This document shows positions 6,844 through 52,055 of a stretch of DNA of 64,000 nt, in pieces (position 1 is the stretch's first letter; every line of letters begins with the position of its first letter). The notes beneath the pieces were generated by a model. It was not told the origin of the DNA. It saw only the letters and a program-made list of their open reading frames with translations, and ran no database searches. A program made the position numbers and the translations under genes. Source of the DNA: Gammaproteobacteria bacterium (GTDB lineage: Bacteria > Pseudomonadota > Gammaproteobacteria > SZUA-229). Location: NCBI GenBank assembly GCA_026195895.1, contig JAPHRO010000015.1, forward strand, positions 62,001-126,000. Direction: 5' to 3'.

Positions 6844-6905
6844 TATTTAAGGGATGTAAGCTGGTGTTATTATGGCGCCACAAAGTATCTTGTCTGGAGC
6901 TGCGA

Positions 6906-7751
6906 GTGTCAATGAAACATGGCGTACTTTATATTGTTGCGACCCCAATTGGAAATAGATCTGACATGGGGCAGCGGGCCATCGAAATATTATCCGAGGT
7001 TAAGCTAATTGCCGCGGAAGATACACGACATAGTCGACATTTATTACAGCATTTTAATATCGACACCCATATGTGGGCCTACCACGATCACAATGAGCAA
7101 CAGCAAACACCAGTATTGATTGAACGCATGCTGTCCGGCGATGATATTGCGCTGATTTCCGATGCCGGTACGCCACTATTGAGTGACCCGGGGTATCGGC
7201 TGGTAAAGGCGGCCCATGAGGCGGGGATAAAAGTCAGCCCGGTGCCGGGTCCCTGTGCGGCCATCGCAGCGCTATCTGCTTCTGGGCTGGCGACCGATCA
7301 GTTCTGTTTTGCCGGCTTTCCGCCAAATAAGTCCTCGGCGCGCATCGCTTTTTTTGAAGCGCTGACAAAAAGTCGTGCCACCCAGGTATTTTATGAGTCC
7401 AGTCATCGTGTCGCCGCATCCCTAGCGGATATGGTGACTGTGTTTGGCGGAGAGCGCGAAGCGGTGCTGGCGCGTGAAATCAGTAAAACATTTGAAACTA
7501 TTCATAAAGCGACGGTAGCTGAATTGAGTCAATGGGTGCAGGAGGACGAAAATCAGCGCAAGGGCGAGTTTGTTCTGGTGGTGCAGGGCAATACGCAACA
7601 GCAGGCGTCAACTACTGTTGAGCTGGAGCAGATGCTGGCTATTTTAATGGATGAGTTGCCGCTGAAGCAGGCAAGTGGACTGGCGGCAAAGATAACCGGG
7701 CGCAAGAAGAATCAGGTCTATAAGCTGGCGCTTGATTTACAGGCTAAATGA
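6906..7751 (+). CDS. rsmI: 16S rRNA 2'-O-ribose C1402 methyltransferase
   Basis: RsmI methylates the ribose of C1402 in 16S rRNA using S-adenosylmethionine. It has the tetrapyrrole-methylase fold, with LYIVATPIGN near the start, AAEDTRHSRHLL, SDAGTPLLSDPG and FYESSHRV. An ATG in frame exists at 6864, but the GGAG at 6896-6899 sits six bases before GTG 6906, and the resulting N-terminus is close to the conserved core; ATG 6912 is the other choice. The gene diverges from lpoA. In relatives rnpB follows directly, but here about 10 kb of accessory DNA intervenes. Confidence 0.93.
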   Translation: MSMKHGVLYIVATPIGNRSDMGQRAIEILSEVKLIAAEDTRHSRHLLQHFNIDTHMWAYHDHNEQQQTPVLIERMLSGDDIALISDAGTPLLSDPGYRLVKAAHEAGIKVSPVPGPCAAIAALSASGLATDQFCFAGFPPNKSSARIAFFEALTKSRATQVFYESSHRVAASLADMVTVFGGEREAVLAREISKTFETIHKATVAELSQWVQEDENQRKGEFVLVVQGNTQQQASTTVELEQMLAILMDELPLKQASGLAAKITGRKKNQVYKLALDLQAK

Positions 7752-7797
7752 TTGATTTTATAGGGTTAATAAGTTCTGTTGTTGCAAGTTGCATGAT

Positions 7798-7816
7798 TCT
7801 GTCGAAATTTATTACA
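7798..7816 (+). repeat. Direct repeat copy 1, enhancer-like (TCTGTCG-N6-ATTACA)
   Basis: TCTGTCG at 7798-7804 and ATTACA at 7811-7816, separated by six A/T bases. The second copy starts exactly 101 bases downstream with identical spacing. This copy would lie near -210 relative to the start predicted from the sigma-54-like promoter. CTGTC resembles the short core reported for PilR binding. Confidence 0.45.
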
Positions 7817-7898
7817 TAAATATTACCGGGATAAACCTTTGATTCACGATGGAATTTCAAATAGATTTTTAAAAAATAATTTAAACGGGGGATAATCA

Positions 7899-7917
7899 TC
7901 TGTCGGAAAAAATTACA
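7899..7917 (+). repeat. Direct repeat copy 2, enhancer-like (TCTGTCG-N6-ATTACA)
   Basis: TCTGTCG at 7899-7905 and ATTACA at 7912-7917. It lies about 110 bases upstream of the expected start of the sigma-54-like promoter, the typical distance for an activator of the NtrC class. Confidence 0.45.
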
Positions 7918-7991
7918 GATAGCTATTGATATTGTTTGCAACTTTTCCCGGTCTCGAGTTATATCTTTGATTTTATTGCGAAATAAAGTTT

Positions 7992-8007
7992 AGGCACGGG
8001 GCGTGCT
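7992..8007 (+). promoter_or_regulatory. Candidate sigma-54 promoter for the first TPR-like gene
   Basis: The sequence AGGCACG-N4-GTGCT fits the sigma-54 consensus TGGCACG-N4-TTGCW at 10 of 12 positions. The invariant GG (7993-7994) and GC (8005-8006) are at the required 12-base spacing. It lies about 170 bases before the gene at 8187. The call rests on the match and on the enhancer-like repeats upstream; rpoN itself is not in the window. Confidence 0.5.
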
Positions 8008-8186
8008 ATTTATCACACAACACTTGCAGTCATACCACTAGACAGAATTCGAATAAATAAATTTCAGTGGCTGGAAAACTGAACTGTAAGGCACCCAAAT
8101 GTTAAAAGCGTGTTACAGGAAGCCTGATATATCGAATCATCAGATTTGTTTTCAGGGTTGTATCAGTTTTCAGGTGGAGTTTTGAG

Positions 8187-8666
8187 ATGGCACCATTGCA
8201 GGCAGTTTATGAAGATTTCAGCTCATGCTGCGACGATTTCGTGGCAGGCGTAGAGCATCTAAAAGAACGCTCTATACCCAGGGCAGTACAAAGCTTTCAG
8301 CAGGCTTATGATTCTGTAGCGCGTGCTGACATATATCACAATAAGTATGAGTCCTATTGTGGATTAGCCCGGGTACTTTCAGGTGATCATAGCGCGATTG
8401 AATTATGTCGAGATGCCGCCAGAAGTGAAATTCATGATGGTGATGTGTTTCTGAATCTGGCACGTGCCGAATGGTTTCTGGATAATCGAAAGAATACAAT
8501 TATTACGCTGAAAAAAGGACTGCAGATAGATAATCGTCATCCAGGTTTGCGTCAGATGCGAGAACAGTTAGGTATCAGGCAGCGTAGCGCGTTACCCTTT
8601 TTGCCACGTAGTCATCCGCTCAATCATGCATTGGGTAAACTAATGCGGCACTATGACCACAAATAG
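8187..8666 (+). CDS. TPR-like protein of an uncharacterised family, paralogue 1
   Basis: A 159-residue soluble protein with no signal peptide or membrane segment, one of three paralogues in this block. I do not recognise a named function. About residues 16-45 (FVAGVEHL, IPRAVQSFQQAYDS) and 70-115 (ELCRDAARS, HDGDVFLNLARAEWF, TLKKGLQIDNRHPGL) look like TPR helix pairs. A very basic tail follows (GIRQRSALPFLPR, GKLMR). A Cys-Cys pair at 14-15 and a Cys in LCRD are kept in all three copies. The start has GGTGGAG eight bases upstream. A strong terminator follows, so the gene is probably monocistronic under the sigma-54-like promoter at 7992. A scaffold or protein-binding role is inference. Confidence 0.85.
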   Translation: MAPLQAVYEDFSSCCDDFVAGVEHLKERSIPRAVQSFQQAYDSVARADIYHNKYESYCGLARVLSGDHSAIELCRDAARSEIHDGDVFLNLARAEWFLDNRKNTIITLKKGLQIDNRHPGLRQMREQLGIRQRSALPFLPRSHPLNHALGKLMRHYDHK

Positions 8667-8723
8667 TAATACTAATAAAGAAGTGGGAGGATACCTGCAA
8701 TATAATAATCATTAGCGTGGTTG

Positions 8724-8754
8724 GCCACAGAGGTAAACTCTGTGGCTTTTTTTT
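8724..8754 (+). terminator. Intrinsic terminator after TPR-like paralogue 1
   Basis: A perfect 9-bp stem (GCCACAGAG at 8724-8732 with CTCTGTGGC at 8738-8746) around GTAAA is followed by eight T residues (8747-8754). This is a textbook Rho-independent terminator. Confidence 0.92.
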
Positions 8755-8819
8755 CACGCAATTATTATCTGAAAGTTTGTTTCAGTTTTTAACAGGATAG
8801 CAGGAAAGAGGAATTCACG

Positions 8820-9296
8820 GTGTCGTTAAAAGAAGTTACTTATCAGGATTACAGCGCCTGTTGTGCTGATTTTATTAATGGAATTGAGTGCATTCGCTGG
8901 AACCTGATTCCACAGGCAGTCAAGAGCTTTCAGCTCGCTTATGAATCCGTTGGTCAATACGATATATATCATAACAAGTATGCCTCTTTCTGTGGCTATG
9001 CCCGAGTTCTAAACAATGATCGCGGAGGGCTTGAATTATGCCGGGATGTGGCACGCAATGAAATCCATGACGGCGATGTGTTGCTGAATCTGGCACGTGT
9101 GGAATGGCATTACCGAAATCGTAAAAAAGCCGTAATGGCCCTGCAACAGGGTTTGAAAATCGATAACCGGCATCCCGGTCTTGGCAGAATGCGAGAGAAA
9201 ATAGGCTATCGTTCACGCCAGCCGTTGTCTTTTTTGCCCAGGCAGCATTCGTTAAATAACATGATTGGCAAACTGTTTAGAAAAGAAGTCAGTTAA
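8820..9296 (+). CDS. TPR-like protein of an uncharacterised family, paralogue 2
   Basis: A 158-residue protein aligned end to end with paralogue 1, about half of the residues being identical by eye. It starts with GTG, supported by AGAGGA upstream and by alignment of SLKEVTYQDYSACC with the other copies. The same landmarks occur: Cys-Cys at 14-15, YHNKYASFCG, ELCRDVARNEIHDGDV, NLARVEW, IDNRHPGL, LSFLPR and the C-terminal GKLFR. The gene has its own gap after the paralogue 1 terminator, so it needs a separate promoter, which I could not place. Function unknown. The tight conservation of HDGDV and NLAR argues that both copies are functional. Confidence 0.85.
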   Translation: MSLKEVTYQDYSACCADFINGIECIRWNLIPQAVKSFQLAYESVGQYDIYHNKYASFCGYARVLNNDRGGLELCRDVARNEIHDGDVLLNLARVEWHYRNRKKAVMALQQGLKIDNRHPGLGRMREKIGYRSRQPLSFLPRQHSLNNMIGKLFRKEVS

Positions 9297-9423: not shown

Positions 9424-10041
9424 CAACAGGAGATCAATCTGTTTGCCAGTGTAAATATCAATCATCTTAAAAAATTGCATTCAAAAAATATACTGGATAA
9501 GTATATTATTTATACCCATAACAAGCTTGAGCTAATGGTTGCCAAAGGTAATCCTGAAAATATAACCAGCGCTATGGATCTGGCTCGTGACGACCTTGTT
9601 CAGTCTCACCCTAATCCTTTAACCGAAGGGATATTTAAATTTTATGGCAGTGGAATGCTTAAGGATCTGGGTATATATGAGCAGGTAACAGCGGATAAGA
9701 TGTGTAAACAGTGTTGGGCAAAGCCTGGCAAGACATGGTTTACCGCTCGCCATCATCGCGAGACACCCCATCGTATTGAAAATAACCAGGCGGACGTTGG
9801 TATTGTCTGGACCACGGAGGTGGCGTATGCAAAAGCAGAAGGTCGTAAATGTCGCCATCAAGGCGCCGCTTAATAAGCAGGACAAGGTGGCTTATGCAAT
9901 CGGCGAGCTGAATCAAGGCAGGAATAAAATAATGCACGGCTGTTTCTTGAATACCTGGCGACAGCCAAAGCACAAACTATTTATCAGCACTATGGATTCG
10001 TTCCAGCTACTCCCGCTGAATTGGTAATTAAAAGTTTTTAA
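9424..10041 (+). pseudogene. Decayed periplasmic substrate-binding protein gene (ModA-like / SBP_bac_11 type)
   Basis: Pieces of a periplasmic binding protein are spread over two frames. Frame 1 gives LFASVNINHLKKL, NKLELMVAKGNPENI, the ARHHRETPHRI segment and NNQADVGIVWTTEV, then shifts near 9845. Frame 2 continues as VVNVAIKAPLNKQDKVAYAIGELNQG, and near 9930 the reading returns to frame 1 with LFLEYLATAKAQTIYQHYGFVPA to a TAA at 10039. The N-terminal third is missing; faint remains may extend back to about 9340. ModA-like proteins bind molybdate or related anions, but the ligand here cannot be deduced. The two frame shifts and lost start mean it is not expressed as a working protein, unless they are sequencing errors. 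Confidence 0.72.
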
Positions 10042-12246: not shown

Positions 12247-15200
12247 ATGAGCGAAGTGTTTCAAAATAGAAAATCTACATTAACACTGATAATTGTGCTC
12301 AGTTTATTTCTTCTTGTTATCGATGCTTTTGTTTATTTTCACCAGCAGAATTACCTGCATCAGCGCTTGCAGGAACATTTTGAAGATCAGGTTGCGCTCT
12401 TTTTTGAGTTAGGGCATAAATCATTTGTCAATGATGATCACACGGCCATCAAAAATATCCTTGATCTATGGAACAGTGATGAACCGGAAATTTTTGCGGT
12501 TAGAGTTTCTGCAGAGAACGGTGCTGTAATTGCAGAGAATGCAAATGAAAGACCGGTGGATTACTCAAAAGCATATCGTACTAAACGGCAGTATGATGAA
12601 TCTACAGTTATATTCTTTGATCTGGTTGCTGATTATTCTGAAATAAATAGTGAGATGTTAAAGCTTTTAATAAGGCTTTTGGGTTTTTCTATTCTGCTGG
12701 TCGGCATTATGTCGTATCTACTTCACCGGCTGGCAATTATCCCTATTGTCAGTGAAAGCAAAGGTCGTTTCGCTTCATTCGTGGACAACCTCCCTGTCGT
12801 TATTTATATGAAAAATTTGCAGGGCCAGTACATTTTATCGAATAAATATCTTAATCAACAACTTGATCTTGCGAATAGTCAGGTGCTTGGTAAAACAGAT
12901 AAAGATATCTTCAAGGAAGATTTCGCTCAAAAAATAATGCAGGATGACAAACTTGTCCTGGCTGAGAAAAGAGCTATGGAGTTTGAAGATTATTTGTTAG
13001 ACGAAACAAATGACTTAATATTTTATACAACAAAATTCCCTATTGTCTCAAAGCATGGCGACATTGAGGCTATTGGCGGAATATCAGTTGATATTACAGC
13101 TTATAAAAAAGCTTCAGAAAAACTGGTAAAAATTAGCCGGGCATTAAAAGTTCTTTCCGAAGTAGATGCTTCGATGATTCACACATGTAATGAGCGGCAG
13201 TGGCTCAATGATGTGTGTCAGTATCTGGTTGATATTGGCGGCTACAGGTTTGCGTGGATCGGTCTTGCCCAGGAAGGGAATGCGAAAAGTATTTTGCCTG
13301 TTGCTGATGCGGGGTATGAAGATGGTTATTTGTCTACTCTAAATTTGACATGGTCCGATACTGTTCGGGGCCAGGGTCCTGCGGGCACTGCGGTCAGAGA
13401 AAAAATAGCCTGTGTAATTTCGAATACGCAAATAGATCCTCGCTTTGAGCCATGGAGAGATGATGCTTTGAAGAGGGGCTATAACTCTGTGTGCAGCGTA
13501 CCCATTGTTATAGGCGACAGTATGGGTTTATTGTCGCTGTATTCATCTGAGCATGATGCGTTTGATAGTGAAGAAATTAATTTGATTGAAGATATTGCTG
13601 AGGATATAGGCTTCGGTATATTGAATTTTAGAACTCGAGCTGAGAATAAAAAAACACAGGATGCATTGTCATCGGAAAAACAAAAATTTGAACAAATCGT
13701 CGAAGGTATTGATGCCGGTGTTATATTGCTTAATTCCGAGTTAAGAATTATCTGGGCCAATACTACATTTCAGTCATGGTTTGGCTCACTGGACAGTATA
13801 AAAGGTAATCATTGTTATTCTGTTTTTGGCTATGCAGATAAGACTGACAATTGTTCAACCTGTGTGGCGGAAAAAACGCAACAAGTTGAAAAAGTAGTTG
13901 TAGCTATAAAAATGCCTGATGGTATTGAAAAGTATTTTGAGCTGGTCACTGCGCCGCTTTTTGAGAATGATCGCATTATTCAATATGTACAAATGGTTCT
14001 AGATGTAACCGAGCGTAAGGTGCTTGAGAATAAACGTATAGAAATAGAACAAAGATTAAATGAAGCACAGCATATTGCGAAATTAGGTAGTTGGCAGCTA
14101 GATATAAAAAACAACAAATTTAGCTGGTCTGACGAAGTATTTAATATCTTCGAATTAGATCCCAAAGCATCGGAGGCCACTTACGATACATTTTTTAATG
14201 TAGTGCATCCCGATGAAAGAGAGAAGGTGAAAAAAGCATATAGAGAATCTCTGCTTAGTAAGCAGCCCTATGAGATAGTACATAGGGTTCTGCTGGGTGG
14301 AGGAGAAATAAAATTTGTTCATGAGCGATGCGAAACGAGTTTTGATGAGCAAGGTGAGCCTCTAATATCAATTGGTACTATTCAGGATATAACAGATCAG
14401 GTTCAGGTTGAGCAGGCGCTGAATGAGAGTCAGGATCATTATCGCCGTTTAATAGAATCTACTACAGCCATACCCTGGGAAATGGACTTAAAAGCAAACA
14501 GGTTTATTTTTGTCGGTCCGCAGGCAGTTAAAGTGCTTGGATACAAGGTGGCTGACTGGTACCAGGAAAATTTTTGGCAAGATCATATTCATCCCGATGA
14601 TAAAAATGAAACGATTAAAGCATTTGAGGCTGCAACCCAAAGCGGTATAGATCATGAATTCGAATATCGAATAATATCTTCAGATGGTCGTGTAGTGTGG
14701 GTTCATGATAACGTTAAAGTTGTCAAAGAAAATGATGTGCCCATACGTTTGCAGGGTTTTATGTTTGACGTGACAGATCGACGACATGCAGAAGAGGTTT
14801 TGCGTCGCACGCAAAAAATGGATGCTGTTGGAAAGTTGACTGGTGGTATTGCACATGATTTCAATAACCAGTTAGGCGTTGTCCAGGGATACCTGGATTT
14901 TCTTGATGCTTATACTGAGAATTCTGAAAAGCCTCATCGCTGGGTTATGTCTGCTTCTCGAGCGACCCGACGTTGTATCGATTTATCTAAAAGATTACTC
15001 AATTTCTCCCGCCAGCAACAGATTGAAGCGGAGCCAGTAAATATAAATCAGGCACTGGAGAAAATGCATGAACTGATAGCTCGTTCATTAACGCCCAGGA
15101 TAGAGGTTAAATATGATCTCGATCAGAAGTTGTGGCCGGTTAATATAAATCCAGGAGAACTGGAAGATGTTTTTCTAAACCTGGCAATAAATTCTCGTGA

Positions 15201-17655
15201 TGCAATGCCAGCCGGCGGTTGCTTCTCCATCCGAACTAAAAATCATAGTTTGAGGGATGACGAGGGTTTAATAATATCGGGTATGGAGCCCGGTGATTAT
15301 ATTGAAATTCGTATTACAGATACGGGTACTGGTATCAAACAGGAAAATCTTGATCGAGTATTTGAACCATTCTTTACTACTAAAGAAGAAGGTAAGGGAA
15401 CGGGGCTTGGGCTTTCGATGGTTTATAGTTTTGTACAGCGTGCAAATGGCGTTATTCATATGGATTCAGGCGCGGGGGAGGGAACCTCGTTTTATATTTA
15501 TTTGCCAAGATTATTACAGGACTCAGACGCTGTCGAAGTGGTTTCAAAAGATGAAAGTGTTATATCGGTATCGGGCAAAGGTGAAATTATTCTGGTTGTT
15601 GATGACGAAGATGAATTGCGAAATCTCGCTGTGGTTTTCCTTGAAATGTTTGGCTATAAAACCCTGGAGGCTGGAAACGCAGCACAGGCAATGAATATAC
15701 TCACATCGGATGCCCGAGTCGATTTACTGTTCACTGATATTATTATGCCGGGTGGTACCAATGGCTATGAGTTGGCAGAAAAGGCCAGGGGAATACGTCC
15801 AGATATAAAGGTGTTGCTAACATCAGGGTTTACTGGCGATATATCTCAGTATCAAAGATCTACAGATGTTCTGCTTAATAAGCCGTATAGTAAACAGGAA
15901 TTGTTACAGCATATAAATGATGTGCTTGTTTTTAATGATGATGCTGAAAAAGATGAGCAAGTTATAGATGAGCAAGTTAAAGAGCAGGAAACTGCGCAAA
16001 CAGATGTATTTGAATGGGATATAAATCTAAGTACTGGTCATGAAGTTATTGATAAGGATCATCAGTATTTATTTAAATTATTGCAGGATTATTCCGTGGC
16101 TCTTGATAATCATACGATCAATCAAAAAGCGCCAGAAATTTTCGACGAACTAATAAATTATACTGATTATCATTTTGCCAGAGAGGAGGCATTAATGCAG
16201 GCCTGTGATTATCCGCATTATGAAAATCATCGGCAGGTGCATAAAATGCTGGTAACCATGGTTAATGACCTGGTAAAAGTTTATCGTCAGGATGTAGATG
16301 TTTTTGATCATAATTCAACAGTTAGATTTTTAAAGCACTGGTTAACGGGGCATATATTAGGAATGGACAAGGCCTACGTTGAATATATTCAGGGGAATGA
16401 ATTGCAAATAGAGCAGGCAATAGCTGAAGTGAGTGGTGCTGAAAATATAGATAAGCCGCAAACAGAAAAAATAAAACTTGCAGTAGTTGATGATGAAATA
16501 AGTATGGGTGAATTTGTTTGTGATGTGGCAGAAAGCTGTGATTTTAATACTGTGAATTACACCCATGCGGCAGATTTCATTGCGCATCATGATGATGAAT
16601 TTAATGTGATAGTGCTTGATTTGCTAATGCCCGATTTTGACGGTATTGAAATGATTCGATTGCTGGCGGGTATGGATAGTGGCGCAGCGTTGATATTGAT
16701 TTCTGGTGTTGATGAAAGCGTATTGCATTCAGCGCAGGAATTGGCTCATGAGCATGGTTTAAATATAGCCGGCACGTTGCAGAAACCCTTCCATGCCCAT
16801 GAATTGAAAAAACTGCTGGAGGTAGTGAGGGCTAAAGTCAAAAAAGAAAAGCCAGTAGTGGTGACTTCAAGTTCAGTAGAGAATGCAGAGTTTGAAATTG
16901 CCGACTTGCAGGAGGCGCTTCATTTGCATCAGTTCATTGGTTATTTTCAGCCACAAATATCAATTGCTACCCATCAGGTTATTGGTTTTGAAGTGCTCAT
17001 GCGCTGGAATCATCCTGAACAGGGTTTGATTCCACCATTTAGATTTATTCCTCTGGCAGAATCGTCAGGACTGATTGATGAAATGACATGGCAGTTGTTG
17101 GAGCAGGTCACCAGGGAGTGGCAGGCTCGTCAGCTAGAGCAGACGATTTCAGTGAATATGACTGCAGGTATGTTTAAGACACTTGATTTGCCGGAAAAAC
17201 TTCATGCGATCGGAGAAAAAAATGGTTTCACTGATTCATCTCGGTTGATGCTGGAAGTAACAGAATCGGCGTTGATGGAGGAGTTGACCAAATCACTGGA
17301 CAGTCTCACCCGCTTACGAATGAAAGGCTTTAAATTATCTATTGATGATTTCGGTACCGGTTATTCTTCCATGATTCAGCTATATAGAGCGCCATTTTCC
17401 GAGCTTAAAGTAGATCAGTCGTTTGTTATGCGAATGGAGAAAGAATCTGAAGCGCGGGCTATTGTTGAGTCGACGATTGATCTGGGCCACAACTTAAACA
17501 TGAAAGTGGTGGCTGAGGGTGTTGAAAGCGCATCGATTTTGCACAGACTCAGTGAGCTGGGTTGCGATATAGCGCAGGGTTATCATATAGCGAAACCCAT
17601 GCCGATCGAGGCGGTGCCTGGATGGCTGGAAGAGTGGAATGGAAAATACAATTAA
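12247..17655 (+). CDS. Giant hybrid sensor kinase: PAS-GAF-PAS3-HisKA-HATPase-REC-hemerythrin-REC-EAL
   Basis: An 1802-residue inner membrane signalling protein. Two transmembrane helices (about 13-31 and 140-160) flank a small periplasmic part. Then follow a PAS (about 178-290), a GAF (300-455), three more PAS domains (to about 855), a kinase core with H870 in GGIAHDFNN and an ATPase with DTGTGI and GTGLGLS, and REC1 with phospho-acceptor D1164. The hemerythrin domain (about 1254-1385) has all seven di-iron ligands: H1272, H1309, E1313, H1328, H1332, H1369 and D1374. REC2 has D1458. The EAL domain (from about 1560; E1582 in EVLMRW) keeps [22 protein letters not shown] and AEGVES, so it may degrade c-di-GMP. 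There is no GGDEF domain. Gas or redox input controlling a phosphodiesterase is inference. Confidence 0.9.
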
Positions 17656-49871: not shown

Positions 49872-49905
49872 AAAAAAAAACCAGAGAGAAGTGATTTCTC
49901 TCTGG
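49872..49905 (-). terminator. Intrinsic terminator after pilA
   Basis: CCAGAGAGAA (49881-49890) and TTCTCTCTGG (49896-49905) form a 10-bp stem with a five-base loop. On the minus strand the stem is followed by a run of nine T residues (A residues at 49872-49880 on the plus strand). A strong stop for a highly expressed pilin message. Confidence 0.92.
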
Positions 49906-49934
49906 TTCAGGTATGTCTATATGGTCAGCAAAGT

Positions 49935-50387
49935 TTACAGATCAAATGTTACCGTATCGCCTGGTAGATCTTCATATGCTGGTGTGGTTACAGTGATTTG
50001 TGCTGGAGGACCGGCAGCATATGTGATAACTACAACCCCAGTAGCAGCAGTGTTTGCAAATGCAGCAGAACCATCGGGGGCTTTCGCAGGAGTTGTCGCG
50101 TTTAAATGTGCGATGAAATCATCATTGTCAGCAACCATGGCTTCTGTGCCATTTGATAACGTGTCACGGCTACCAGCAGGAATATTCAGCGCGCGCTGAG
50201 TTTTGTTCTTGGAAATTTCATTTTTGATAATACGCACAGCTTCAGCCGCATTACCGGTGACCTGGGTCATGTTGGTAGTTTTAATGTAGTTGTTATAGGA
50301 AGGAATGGCGATAGCAGCCAGAATACCGATGATGGCTACCACGATCATCAATTCAATCAGGGTAAAACCTTGTTGGACTTTTTTCAT
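49935..50387 (-). CDS. pilA: Type IV pilin, likely major subunit
   Basis: A 150-residue prepilin with a six-residue basic leader (MKKVQQ) and cleavage site G7|FTLIE, Glu at +5, then the typical helix [26 protein letters not shown]. It contains no cysteine at all, so the usual C-terminal disulfide loop of type IVa pilins is missing. The C-terminal half is rich in Ala, Thr and Pro, suggesting a beta-sheet head. A sigma-54 promoter, TGTCA-containing sites and a strong terminator surround it, which points to high regulated expression and the major subunit role. Confidence 0.93.
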
Positions 50388-50483: not shown

Positions 50484-50499
50484 TGCAGAGCCCGTGCCA
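50484..50499 (-). promoter_or_regulatory. Sigma-54 promoter of pilA
   Basis: Minus strand TGGCACG-GGCT-CTGCA (50499-50484) matches the sigma-54 consensus at all but one position, with GG and GC 12 bases apart. Transcription would start near 50473, giving a leader of about 85 bases before the pilA ATG. Pilin genes under PilR are known to use sigma-54. Confidence 0.88.
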
Positions 50500-50567
50500 G
50501 GTGCTAAAAATAATTTATTTTTATAATTAATACAACTAGTTAGCTGTATGCTGTGGGAAGAAATGCA

Positions 50568-50616
50568 ATTGACAAAAGTGACAAATAGGTTAGTCGCCTG
50601 TGTCACAAAGTGACAA
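50568..50616 (-). promoter_or_regulatory. Candidate PilR enhancer sites upstream of pilA
   Basis: Several TGTCA elements cluster here: TTGACAAA at 50569, GTGACAAA at 50578, and the perfect inverted repeat TGTCAC-AAA-GTGACA at 50601-50615. They lie about 95-140 bases before the predicted start. PilR of Pseudomonas is known to bind clustered (C/G)TGTC motifs upstream of pilA. Confidence 0.65.
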
Positions 50617-50693
50617 AATTGTAAGTAGTTAACCATTACCATATTAGCAAATACCAATGACTGGTCATGCTGGCGATTATTTTTAGCCGGTTT

Positions 50694-52055
50694 TTAGTCG
50701 ATTTTCAGTTTGCTCAGGCGGTAGCGCAACTGGCGTAAAGTCAGGCCTAATAATTTCGCGGCTGCGGTTTTATTCCAGCGAGTCTGTTCCAGTGCCTGCA
50801 GAATGGATTCTTTTTCCTGTTCAACCAGCGTGCCGGTGGCGGCTTCTGGCGCGGTATCGGGTTTTGTCTGTGGTGCAGATAGCGAGGTTTCCATATCGGG
50901 CAGTTGCAGGTCATCGAGTTCGATGCGCTTGTCTTCCGACAGCGCCAGCGCCCGTTCCAGAATATTTTCCAGTTCACGTACATTGCCTGGGAAAGTATGC
51001 TGACACAGAGCCTCGATTGCCTGCCGGCTGAAGGCGGGTGTCGGCATCGCTGATTTTTCACACAGACGATGTAGTAGATAGTCTGCCAGTACAGGAATGT
51101 CGTCGGGTCTTTCCCGTAAGGTGGGTATGGCCAGCTCAATAACATTAATCCGATAATAGAGGTCTTCGCGAAATTTTCCCTGCTGTACCAGGTCGGCGAG
51201 ATTTTTATGGCTGGCGCTGATAATCCTGACATCGACCGCCTGTTCATGGTGGTCGCCCACCGGACGAATGGCTTTTTCCTGAATGGCGCGTAGTAGTTTG
51301 ACCTGCATCTGTAACGGCAGGTCAGCAACTTCATCAAGGAACAGGGTGCCGCCATCCGCCGCTTTGAACAGCCCCTGTTTATCCGTGGTGGCGCCCGTGA
51401 AACTGCCTTTTTTATGACCAAAAAACTCACTTTCCATGAGCTCGCCGGGTATGGCGCCACAGTTTACCGGTATGAATGGGTGACTGCTTCTTGCGCCCTG
51501 CTCATGGATTAAATGTGCAGCAAGTTCTTTACCGCAACCTGATTCCCCGTGGACAAATACAGGCGCCTGACTGCGGGCTAATTTGGTTATTTTATTTCGC
51601 AGCTCCTGCATAGCCTGCGAGTTCCCCAGCAGTTTGTATTTGCTCTGGGTTTTTTGCGATGAGCCATTGCCTGTTTTAGGCAGGTTGATGGCTGAAGTCA
51701 CCAGGTTGCGCAGCACCTGCAAATCGACCGGTTTTGATACGAAGTCAAAAGCACCGGCTTTTAGTGCTTTAATGGCCAGCTCCATATTGCCATACGCGGT
51801 AATCACCGCAACCGGGATGCTGGGGTGATTTGTCTGTATGTATTCAACCAGATCAATACCATTGCCATCTGGCAAATTCATGTCGGTGATGCAAAGGTCA
51901 AAGGGTTCGGAATTTAGCAGATTAAGCGCGGTTTCTATATCGTTGGCTGATTGTGTATCCAGACCCATGCGACTCAAAGTGATTTCTGCCAGTTCGCATA
52001 GATCCGGTTCATCATCGACAATGAGTGCTTTATTGATATGTGTATTTGAAGTCAC
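50694..52055 (-). CDS. pilR: Sigma-54-dependent response regulator PilR
   Basis: A 453-residue NtrC-class activator of pilin transcription. The receiver domain (about 5-125) has ALIVDDEPDL and phospho-acceptor Asp in CITDMNLPDG. The AAA+ domain (about 145-370) has the Walker A GESGCGKE, the sigma-54 contact loop GSFTGAT, and GGTLFLDEVADLPL. A Fis-type helix-turn-helix (TRWNKTAAAKLLGLTLRQLRYRLSK) closes the protein. The start is GTG at 52055 with no clear ribosome site. Unusually, the partner kinase gene pilS is separated from it by an opposite-strand pseudogene. Confidence 0.94.
   Translation of the reverse strand: MTSNTHINKALIVDDEPDLCELAEITLSRMGLDTQSANDIETALNLLNSEPFDLCITDMNLPDGNGIDLVEYIQTNHPSIPVAVITAYGNMELAIKALKAGAFDFVSKPVDLQVLRNLVTSAINLPKTGNGSSQKTQSKYKLLGNSQAMQELRNKITKLARSQAPVFVHGESGCGKELAAHLIHEQGARSSHPFIPVNCGAIPGELMESEFFGHKKGSFTGATTDKQGLFKAADGGTLFLDEVADLPLQMQVKLLRAIQEKAIRPVGDHHEQAVDVRIISASHKNLADLVQQGKFREDLYYRINVIELAIPTLRERPDDIPVLADYLLHRLCEKSAMPTPAFSRQAIEALCQHTFPGNVRELENILERALALSEDKRIELDDLQLPDMETSLSAPQTKPDTAPEAATGTLVEQEKESILQALEQTRWNKTAAAKLLGLTLRQLRYRLSKLKID

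Follow-up and report, generated by a model that had tools for sequence, protein, structure and literature searches.

The DNA between rsmI and the gene starting at position 8187 raises two questions. What drives transcription of this gene, which encodes a TPR-like protein, and to which regulon does it belong? Positions refer to the window, meaning the whole 64-kb stretch of DNA analysed. An earlier note described a sigma-54 promoter with two enhancer sites. It also suggested PilR as a candidate activator, with the gene possibly in a pilus or nitrogen/motility regulon. Our data support the promoter and point to a different regulon. With a probability of about 85%, we consider the stretch to be a PEP-CTERM-type sigma-54 promoter, placing the 8187 gene in the exosortase (VPLPA/PEP-CTERM, PrsK-PrsR) regulon. 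Three things are new. The target of such a promoter is a TPR-like protein, without a sorting signal, encoded between rsmI and rnpB; an IHF-like site occupies a fixed position before -24; and the gene is followed by a conserved 3' element whose hairpin shows covariation.

Promoter architecture and motif identity

The relevant features are listed in Table 1. Two copies of TGTCG-N6-ATTACA, at 7800-7816 and 7901-7917, lie within TCTGTCG-N6-ATTACA repeats. These begin at 7798 and 7899, 101 nucleotides (nt) apart, exactly as previously described. A 74-nt spacer separates box 2 from the sigma-54 element AGGCACGGGGCGTGCT, which starts at 7992, as claimed, and has a GG and a GC that are invariant in 11 orthologues. 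Note that both boxes have ATTACA instead of TTTACA (one mismatch each) and that the T usually found at the start of the -24 element is absent. If +1 is placed at the predicted transcript start, near 8018, the box centres fall at -210 and -109. The values proposed earlier, near -210 and -110, agree with this.

Table 1. Positions of the predicted promoter parts, neighbouring genes and contrast locus in the window.
Feature	Position	Strand	Basis or remark
rsmI (16S rRNA methyltransferase), upstream neighbour	6864..7751	+	Pfam TP_methylase and RsmI_C; alignment
Activator box 1 TGTCGAAATTTATTACA, PEP-CTERM motif 1, predicted PrsR site	7800..7816	+	centre ~ -210
Activator box 2 TGTCGGAAAAAATTACA, PEP-CTERM motif 1, predicted	7901..7917	+	centre ~ -109
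IHF-like site AATCAAAGATATA, between box 2 and -24	7960..7972	-	-58 to -46
Sigma-54 -24/-12 element AGGCACGGGGCGTGCT	7992..8007	+	GG-N10-GC; orthologue alignment
Predicted 5' untranslated region, 169 nt	8018..8186	+	inferred from promoter position
159-aa TPR-like protein gene, probable target of box promoter	8187..8666	+	without Pfam or NCBIfam family
Conserved 3' element: unpaired ATTAGCGTGGTTG, hairpin GGCCACAG..CTCTGTGGCT, U run	8711..8754	+	alignment, terminator scan
Tandem paralogue 2, 56% identity	8820..9296	+	without box + sigma-54 pair upstream
Tandem paralogue 3, 48% identity	10218..10694	+	without box upstream
pilA-like pilin gene (contrast)	49935..50387	-	TIGR02532; translation
Sigma-54 site of pilA-like gene TGGCACGGGCTCTGCA	50484..50499	-	TTTGTCAC repeats upstream, about 50617-50570
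PilR-like sigma-54 response regulator gene	50694..52055	-	receiver, Sigma54_activat, HTH_8 domains

The full box resembles a motif described by Haft et al. (2006; PMC1569441). According to the available text of that paper, a 17-nt motif 1, ending TTTACA and sometimes repeated, precedes proteobacterial PEP-CTERM genes. Motif 2, a -24(GG)/-12(GC) element of the sigma-54 type, follows after a spacer of 62.8 +/- 10.6 nt (32-92). The response regulator PrsR was proposed as the reader of motif 1. The window promoter matches this description in motif 1 (two copies), spacer and motif 2. Note that the 5' half of motif 1, TGTCG, was inferred here from sequence. In the same text, a few sites precede genes without a PEP-CTERM signal. 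Hence, a PEP-CTERM target is usual but not required.

The genome from which the window derives encodes the corresponding machinery in one cluster, on contig C28. The cluster comprises PrsR (713 bits, cut-off 502.6), PrsK (750 bits, cut-off 300), PrsT (337 bits, cut-off 312.2), the exosortase XrtD (594 bits, cut-off 400) and a VPLPA-CTERM protein (34.5 bits, cut-off 25.35). The VPLPA-CTERM gene has a double-box promoter of its own, with TGTCAGTATTATTTACA and TGTCGGGAAGATTTACA followed by TGGCACGGGCGTTGCT. Searches with TIGR02595 gave no match in this genome, and none in controls either, and are therefore uninformative. Sorted proteins were sought by a C-terminal DNA pattern, for which the control direction gave 0 in 16/16 genomes. 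In this and related genomes, a box and sigma-54 site precede 20 of 55 VPxPA-type genes not chosen by box, and 10 of another 13 whose loci had been selected by box or cluster. Overall, this is 30/68 (shuffles expect 0.13 of 68); one further gene, with upstream DNA too short, was left out of the count.

Three other observations concern the cluster. The prsR start is preceded, some 30 nt upstream, by one box, TGTCGAAATTTATTACA, which no sigma-54 site follows. Between prsK and prsR is a gene for a receiver-only response regulator, resembling the PrsR receiver (L231:15451-15867). The cluster also has a LanM-type lanthipeptide synthetase-like gene (L231:9141-10859; TIGR03897 346 bits, cut-off 304) encoding only 572 amino acids (aa).

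Boxes also occur before genes of other kinds. In three genomes of one genus (G002, G014 and G022; loci L171, L172 and L173), the box promoter stands before two successive genes, the first of DUF503 and the second of the histidine-phosphatase family (families scanned in the G002 copy). In G023 and G028 (L179, L180), it precedes the gene for a conserved 98-aa protein, without a sorting signal and with no Pfam match (G028 copy scanned). The window's own genome has double boxes (the upstream one with two mismatches) and a sigma-54 site before the gene for a 537-aa protein. Hence, the regulon appears to extend beyond sorted proteins.

Chance, conservation and the IHF-like register

Logically, the arrangement could be fortuitous, with the gene using another promoter. 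GG-N10-GC alone occurs at chance level in the window (64 matches against 65.3 expected, at up to three mismatches), and weak sigma-70-like sites are present at 7868-7896. The boxes are a different matter. The two 19-mers are the sole exact matches within the window. In 5000 dinucleotide shuffles of 7752-8186, two boxes (up to one mismatch) never arose; at least one box appeared in 30 shuffles, and a box followed by a sigma-54 site in 15. Among 78 window open reading frames of at least 100 aa, only that at 8187 has a box and sigma-54 site within 450 nt upstream.

We also scored the window with a weight matrix built from 29 of 30 PEP-CTERM promoters of this and related genomes, one weak promoter being dropped. 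The training set held no TPR-gene promoter. Across both strands, the window boxes rank first and second. The box-promoter pair has the best score in the window, 24.7, and the next pair scores 18.5. However, 24.7 barely exceeds 24.1, the best among 40 simulated 64-kb strands. The combined score is therefore near the chance limit for the window, and conservation has to carry the argument.

Of 57 other genomes searched, 10 encode a close orthologue of the protein (72-79% identity); a homologue of any kind is present in 28/58 genomes, its own included. We refer to the 10 close orthologues, plus the window gene, as the 11 orthologues. Alignment of their loci, which the earlier note had suggested, reveals two boxes and GG-N10-GC in 11/11, always between the rsmI end and the gene. 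This supports the earlier description of a sigma-54 promoter preceded by a pair of enhancer sites. Box-to-box distances are 96-102 nt, and box 2 starts 90-93 nt before the promoter, at every locus. TGTCG and the GG and GC vary little or not at all. Column conservation averages 0.81 for the boxes and 0.76 for the promoter; the diverged spacers have values of 0.62 and 0.59, and conservation of the 5' leader is only patchy. The rsmI 3' end precedes the promoter in all 11 loci, and rnpB lies downstream of the gene in 5 of 8 loci scanned, as it does in the window. Among 16 more distant homologues with upstream DNA, none has the box and sigma-54 pair. Conservation in 11/11 orthologues is the strongest support for the predicted promoter. 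Given a geometry that is fixed despite diverged spacers, and two boxes in none of the shuffles, we regard a fortuitous match as exceedingly improbable.

An IHF-type sequence is found between the activator sites and the -24 element. Here, AATCAAAGATATA matches 8 of 9 letters of WATCARNNNNTTR. A reverse WATCARNNNNTTR match (at least 7/9 letters) lies exactly at -32 from the promoter 16-mer in 10 of 11 TPR-gene promoters; shifted registers give about one match. For PEP-CTERM promoters, a match in the same register, or forward at -19/-20, occurs in 25/30, and in 16/20 of an unselected set (shifted-register means 1.45 and 0.73, respectively). According to the accessible part of PMC7962754, RpoN-dependent promoters often contain a sequence that IHF binds. 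Neither "IHF" nor "integration host factor" appears in the available text of PMC1569441. The position-locked IHF-like site before -24 is new here, as a feature of sequence, and IHF would be expected to occupy 7960-7972. The register refines the description of PEP-CTERM promoters generally within this bacterial family.

Candidate activators

The PilR core is C/GTGTC. Both window copies contain CTGTC, and the window has a gene for a PilR-like regulator, as previously noted. This gene is recognised as PilR-like by its domains; NCBIfam matches are all below cut-off. Were PilR to bind these cores, the 8187 gene would belong to the pilus regulon. The pilA-like promoter, next to pilR, speaks against this: its repeats are of another sequence, TTTGTCAC, and a TGTCG-N6-TTTACA box is absent even when three mismatches are allowed. 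Furthermore, in the 11-locus alignment, the TTACA half is conserved and the base before TGTC is not. Hence, the CTGTC core holds for both window copies but not across orthologues. The full box, its repetition and the 74-nt spacing instead fit the PEP-CTERM motif, rather than a pilus or nitrogen/motility regulon. We consider control by PilR very unlikely.

The pilA-like promoter may serve as a model for the PilR site of this lineage. At 50484-50620 (minus strand), TTTGTCA occurs three times, and an IHF-like TAACTAGTTG stretch is also present. A PF00114 match did not correspond to the gene for the major pilin; the window itself supplied the pilA-like gene.

PrsR is the activator that the box identity suggests, and the window promoter would then depend on PrsR and RpoN. 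The main result against PrsR is its distribution. An orthologue (at least 66% identity, above cut-off) was found in 4 of 11 promoter-bearing draft genomes (G000, G004, G022 and G033) and not in the other seven. Four of these seven, G002, G003, G015 and G023, are all at least 99% complete; in these, the next-best regulators share about 40% identity. The boxes might therefore be bound by a different activator of the NtrC family, with a similar site. Transcription would then require sigma-54 but, in lineages without PrsR at any rate, not PrsR itself.

Several observations make such an activator improbable. In genomes where PrsR was not found (G003, G014, G015, G002 and G023), the box also precedes PEP-CTERM-type genes. 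Hence, the regulon looks alike there. In the list of regulator C-termini, PrsR orthologues have a distinct type (SRPTLYDL and close variants), which was not seen among the listed regulators of genomes without PrsR. Sorted proteins of VPxPA type occur in 11/11 genomes but an exosortase was found in only 6/11. In G004, G033 and the window's own genome, prsR and the exosortase gene share a strand and are about 8-10 kb apart, with prsR at the lower coordinates. In G015 and G009, the exosortase is 2.7 and 4.7 kb from the contig end where prsR is expected. Since exosortases are missing, or lie near contig ends, pieces were likely lost from the assemblies. We conclude that missing contigs are a likely explanation for the absence of PrsR.

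We envisage that regulation by PrsR would proceed as follows. The kinase PrsK would phosphorylate PrsR, and PrsR oligomers would occupy both boxes, at -210 and -109. Bending of the DNA by IHF, at about -50, would allow PrsR to contact RNA polymerase with sigma-54 at 7992-8007, and opening would be ATP dependent. The transcript would run from about 8018, through the 8187 gene, to a terminator near 8750. The PrsR system is known mainly from sequence. The promoter described here, driving a conserved and probable non-sorted member of the PrsR regulon, is open to immediate testing.

The encoded protein, its 3' element and known systems

Searches of Pfam (its TPR families included), NCBIfam and PHROGs gave no match for the 159-aa protein. 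Even so, its TPR-like label is borne out by fold. AlphaFold predicts eight helices (pLDDT 86), most of the listed Foldseek matches are TPR domains (best E 1.8e-3) and there is a profile match to TPR chains (E 0.0011). No PEP-CTERM-type C-terminus or sorting signal is present, and no signal peptide is evident by eye. PrsT is likewise a TPR protein, but a different and long one. On the basis of co-regulation, the 159-aa protein may be a cytosolic adaptor for exosortase or exopolysaccharide output, and would thus serve delivery of surface proteins or exopolysaccharide. This makes the 8187 gene a candidate for a cytosolic step in either process.

Besides the tandem copies in Table 1, a paralogue occurs at a second site, near a gene that we take, from its sequence, to be rimO. 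A sorted-protein gene is about 3 kb away in G023 and G028, and absent from the stretch in G004 and G015. Two further window genes were noted. Between the tandem TPR-like genes, at 9475-9873, lies what seems to be a partial gene for a periplasmic solute-binding protein; its 132 aa align with the central part of the SBP_bac_11 profile. Just before rnpB, 12247-17655 encodes an 1802-aa protein with GAF, PAS, histidine kinase, receiver, hemerythrin and EAL domains.

A conserved element follows the TPR-like gene, with ATTAGCGTGGTTG beginning about 45 nt past the stop codon. In 11/11 orthologue 3' ends, unpaired TTAGCGTGGT is invariant and the 7-bp stem is 100% paired; two pairs are changed on both sides, in one sequence each. 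The element is a candidate terminator, and perhaps also a small RNA 3' end. A terminator explains the stem and U run but leaves the invariant unpaired stretch unexplained. One doubtful idea is that a PrsR-driven transcript yields both the cytosolic TPR adaptor (for exosortase or exopolysaccharide) and a 3'-end small RNA, with invariant unpaired AUUAGCGUGGU, adjacent to the terminator, as its seed. If true, the surface-protein regulon acts post-transcriptionally too. Rfam, at a permissive threshold, returned only two chance-level matches in 7752-8850. In 186 kb of DNA from the same genome, a small part of it, no seed complement lay just before an evident start codon, as judged by eye. A model of the element (R1), run against 37 sources (262 kb), matched in full only at the 3' ends of TPR genes; one partial, terminator-only match scored 11.9 bits, at window positions 49872-49906.

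How does the promoter compare with known systems? Within the window, the pilA-like promoter (50484-50693, minus strand) is also of the sigma-54 type, with TGTC-containing repeats upstream. Unlike the window boxes, its TTTGTCAC repeats are close together and have neither a TTTACA half nor spacing of about 100 nt. The RpoN1-dependent pepA promoter of Aquincola tertiaricarbonis, as described in the accessible part of PMC9850573, is alike in its -24 GG, -12 GC and predicted upstream enhancer, and has a mapped start. Its target is a PEP-CTERM protein, unlike that of the window promoter, and dependence on PrsR is not demonstrated in that part of the paper either. The closest relatives are the promoters in the available text of PMC1569441. 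Three features set the window promoter and its genome apart from what is described there: a target without a PEP-CTERM signal, an exosortase of XrtD/VPLPA type and an IHF-like site in a fixed register. Otherwise, the two correspond. Both have a repeated 17-nt box ending (T/A)TTACA, some 63-74 nt before a -24/-12 site, a long untranslated leader and a single-gene unit, in a genome that encodes PrsK, PrsR, PrsT and an exosortase.
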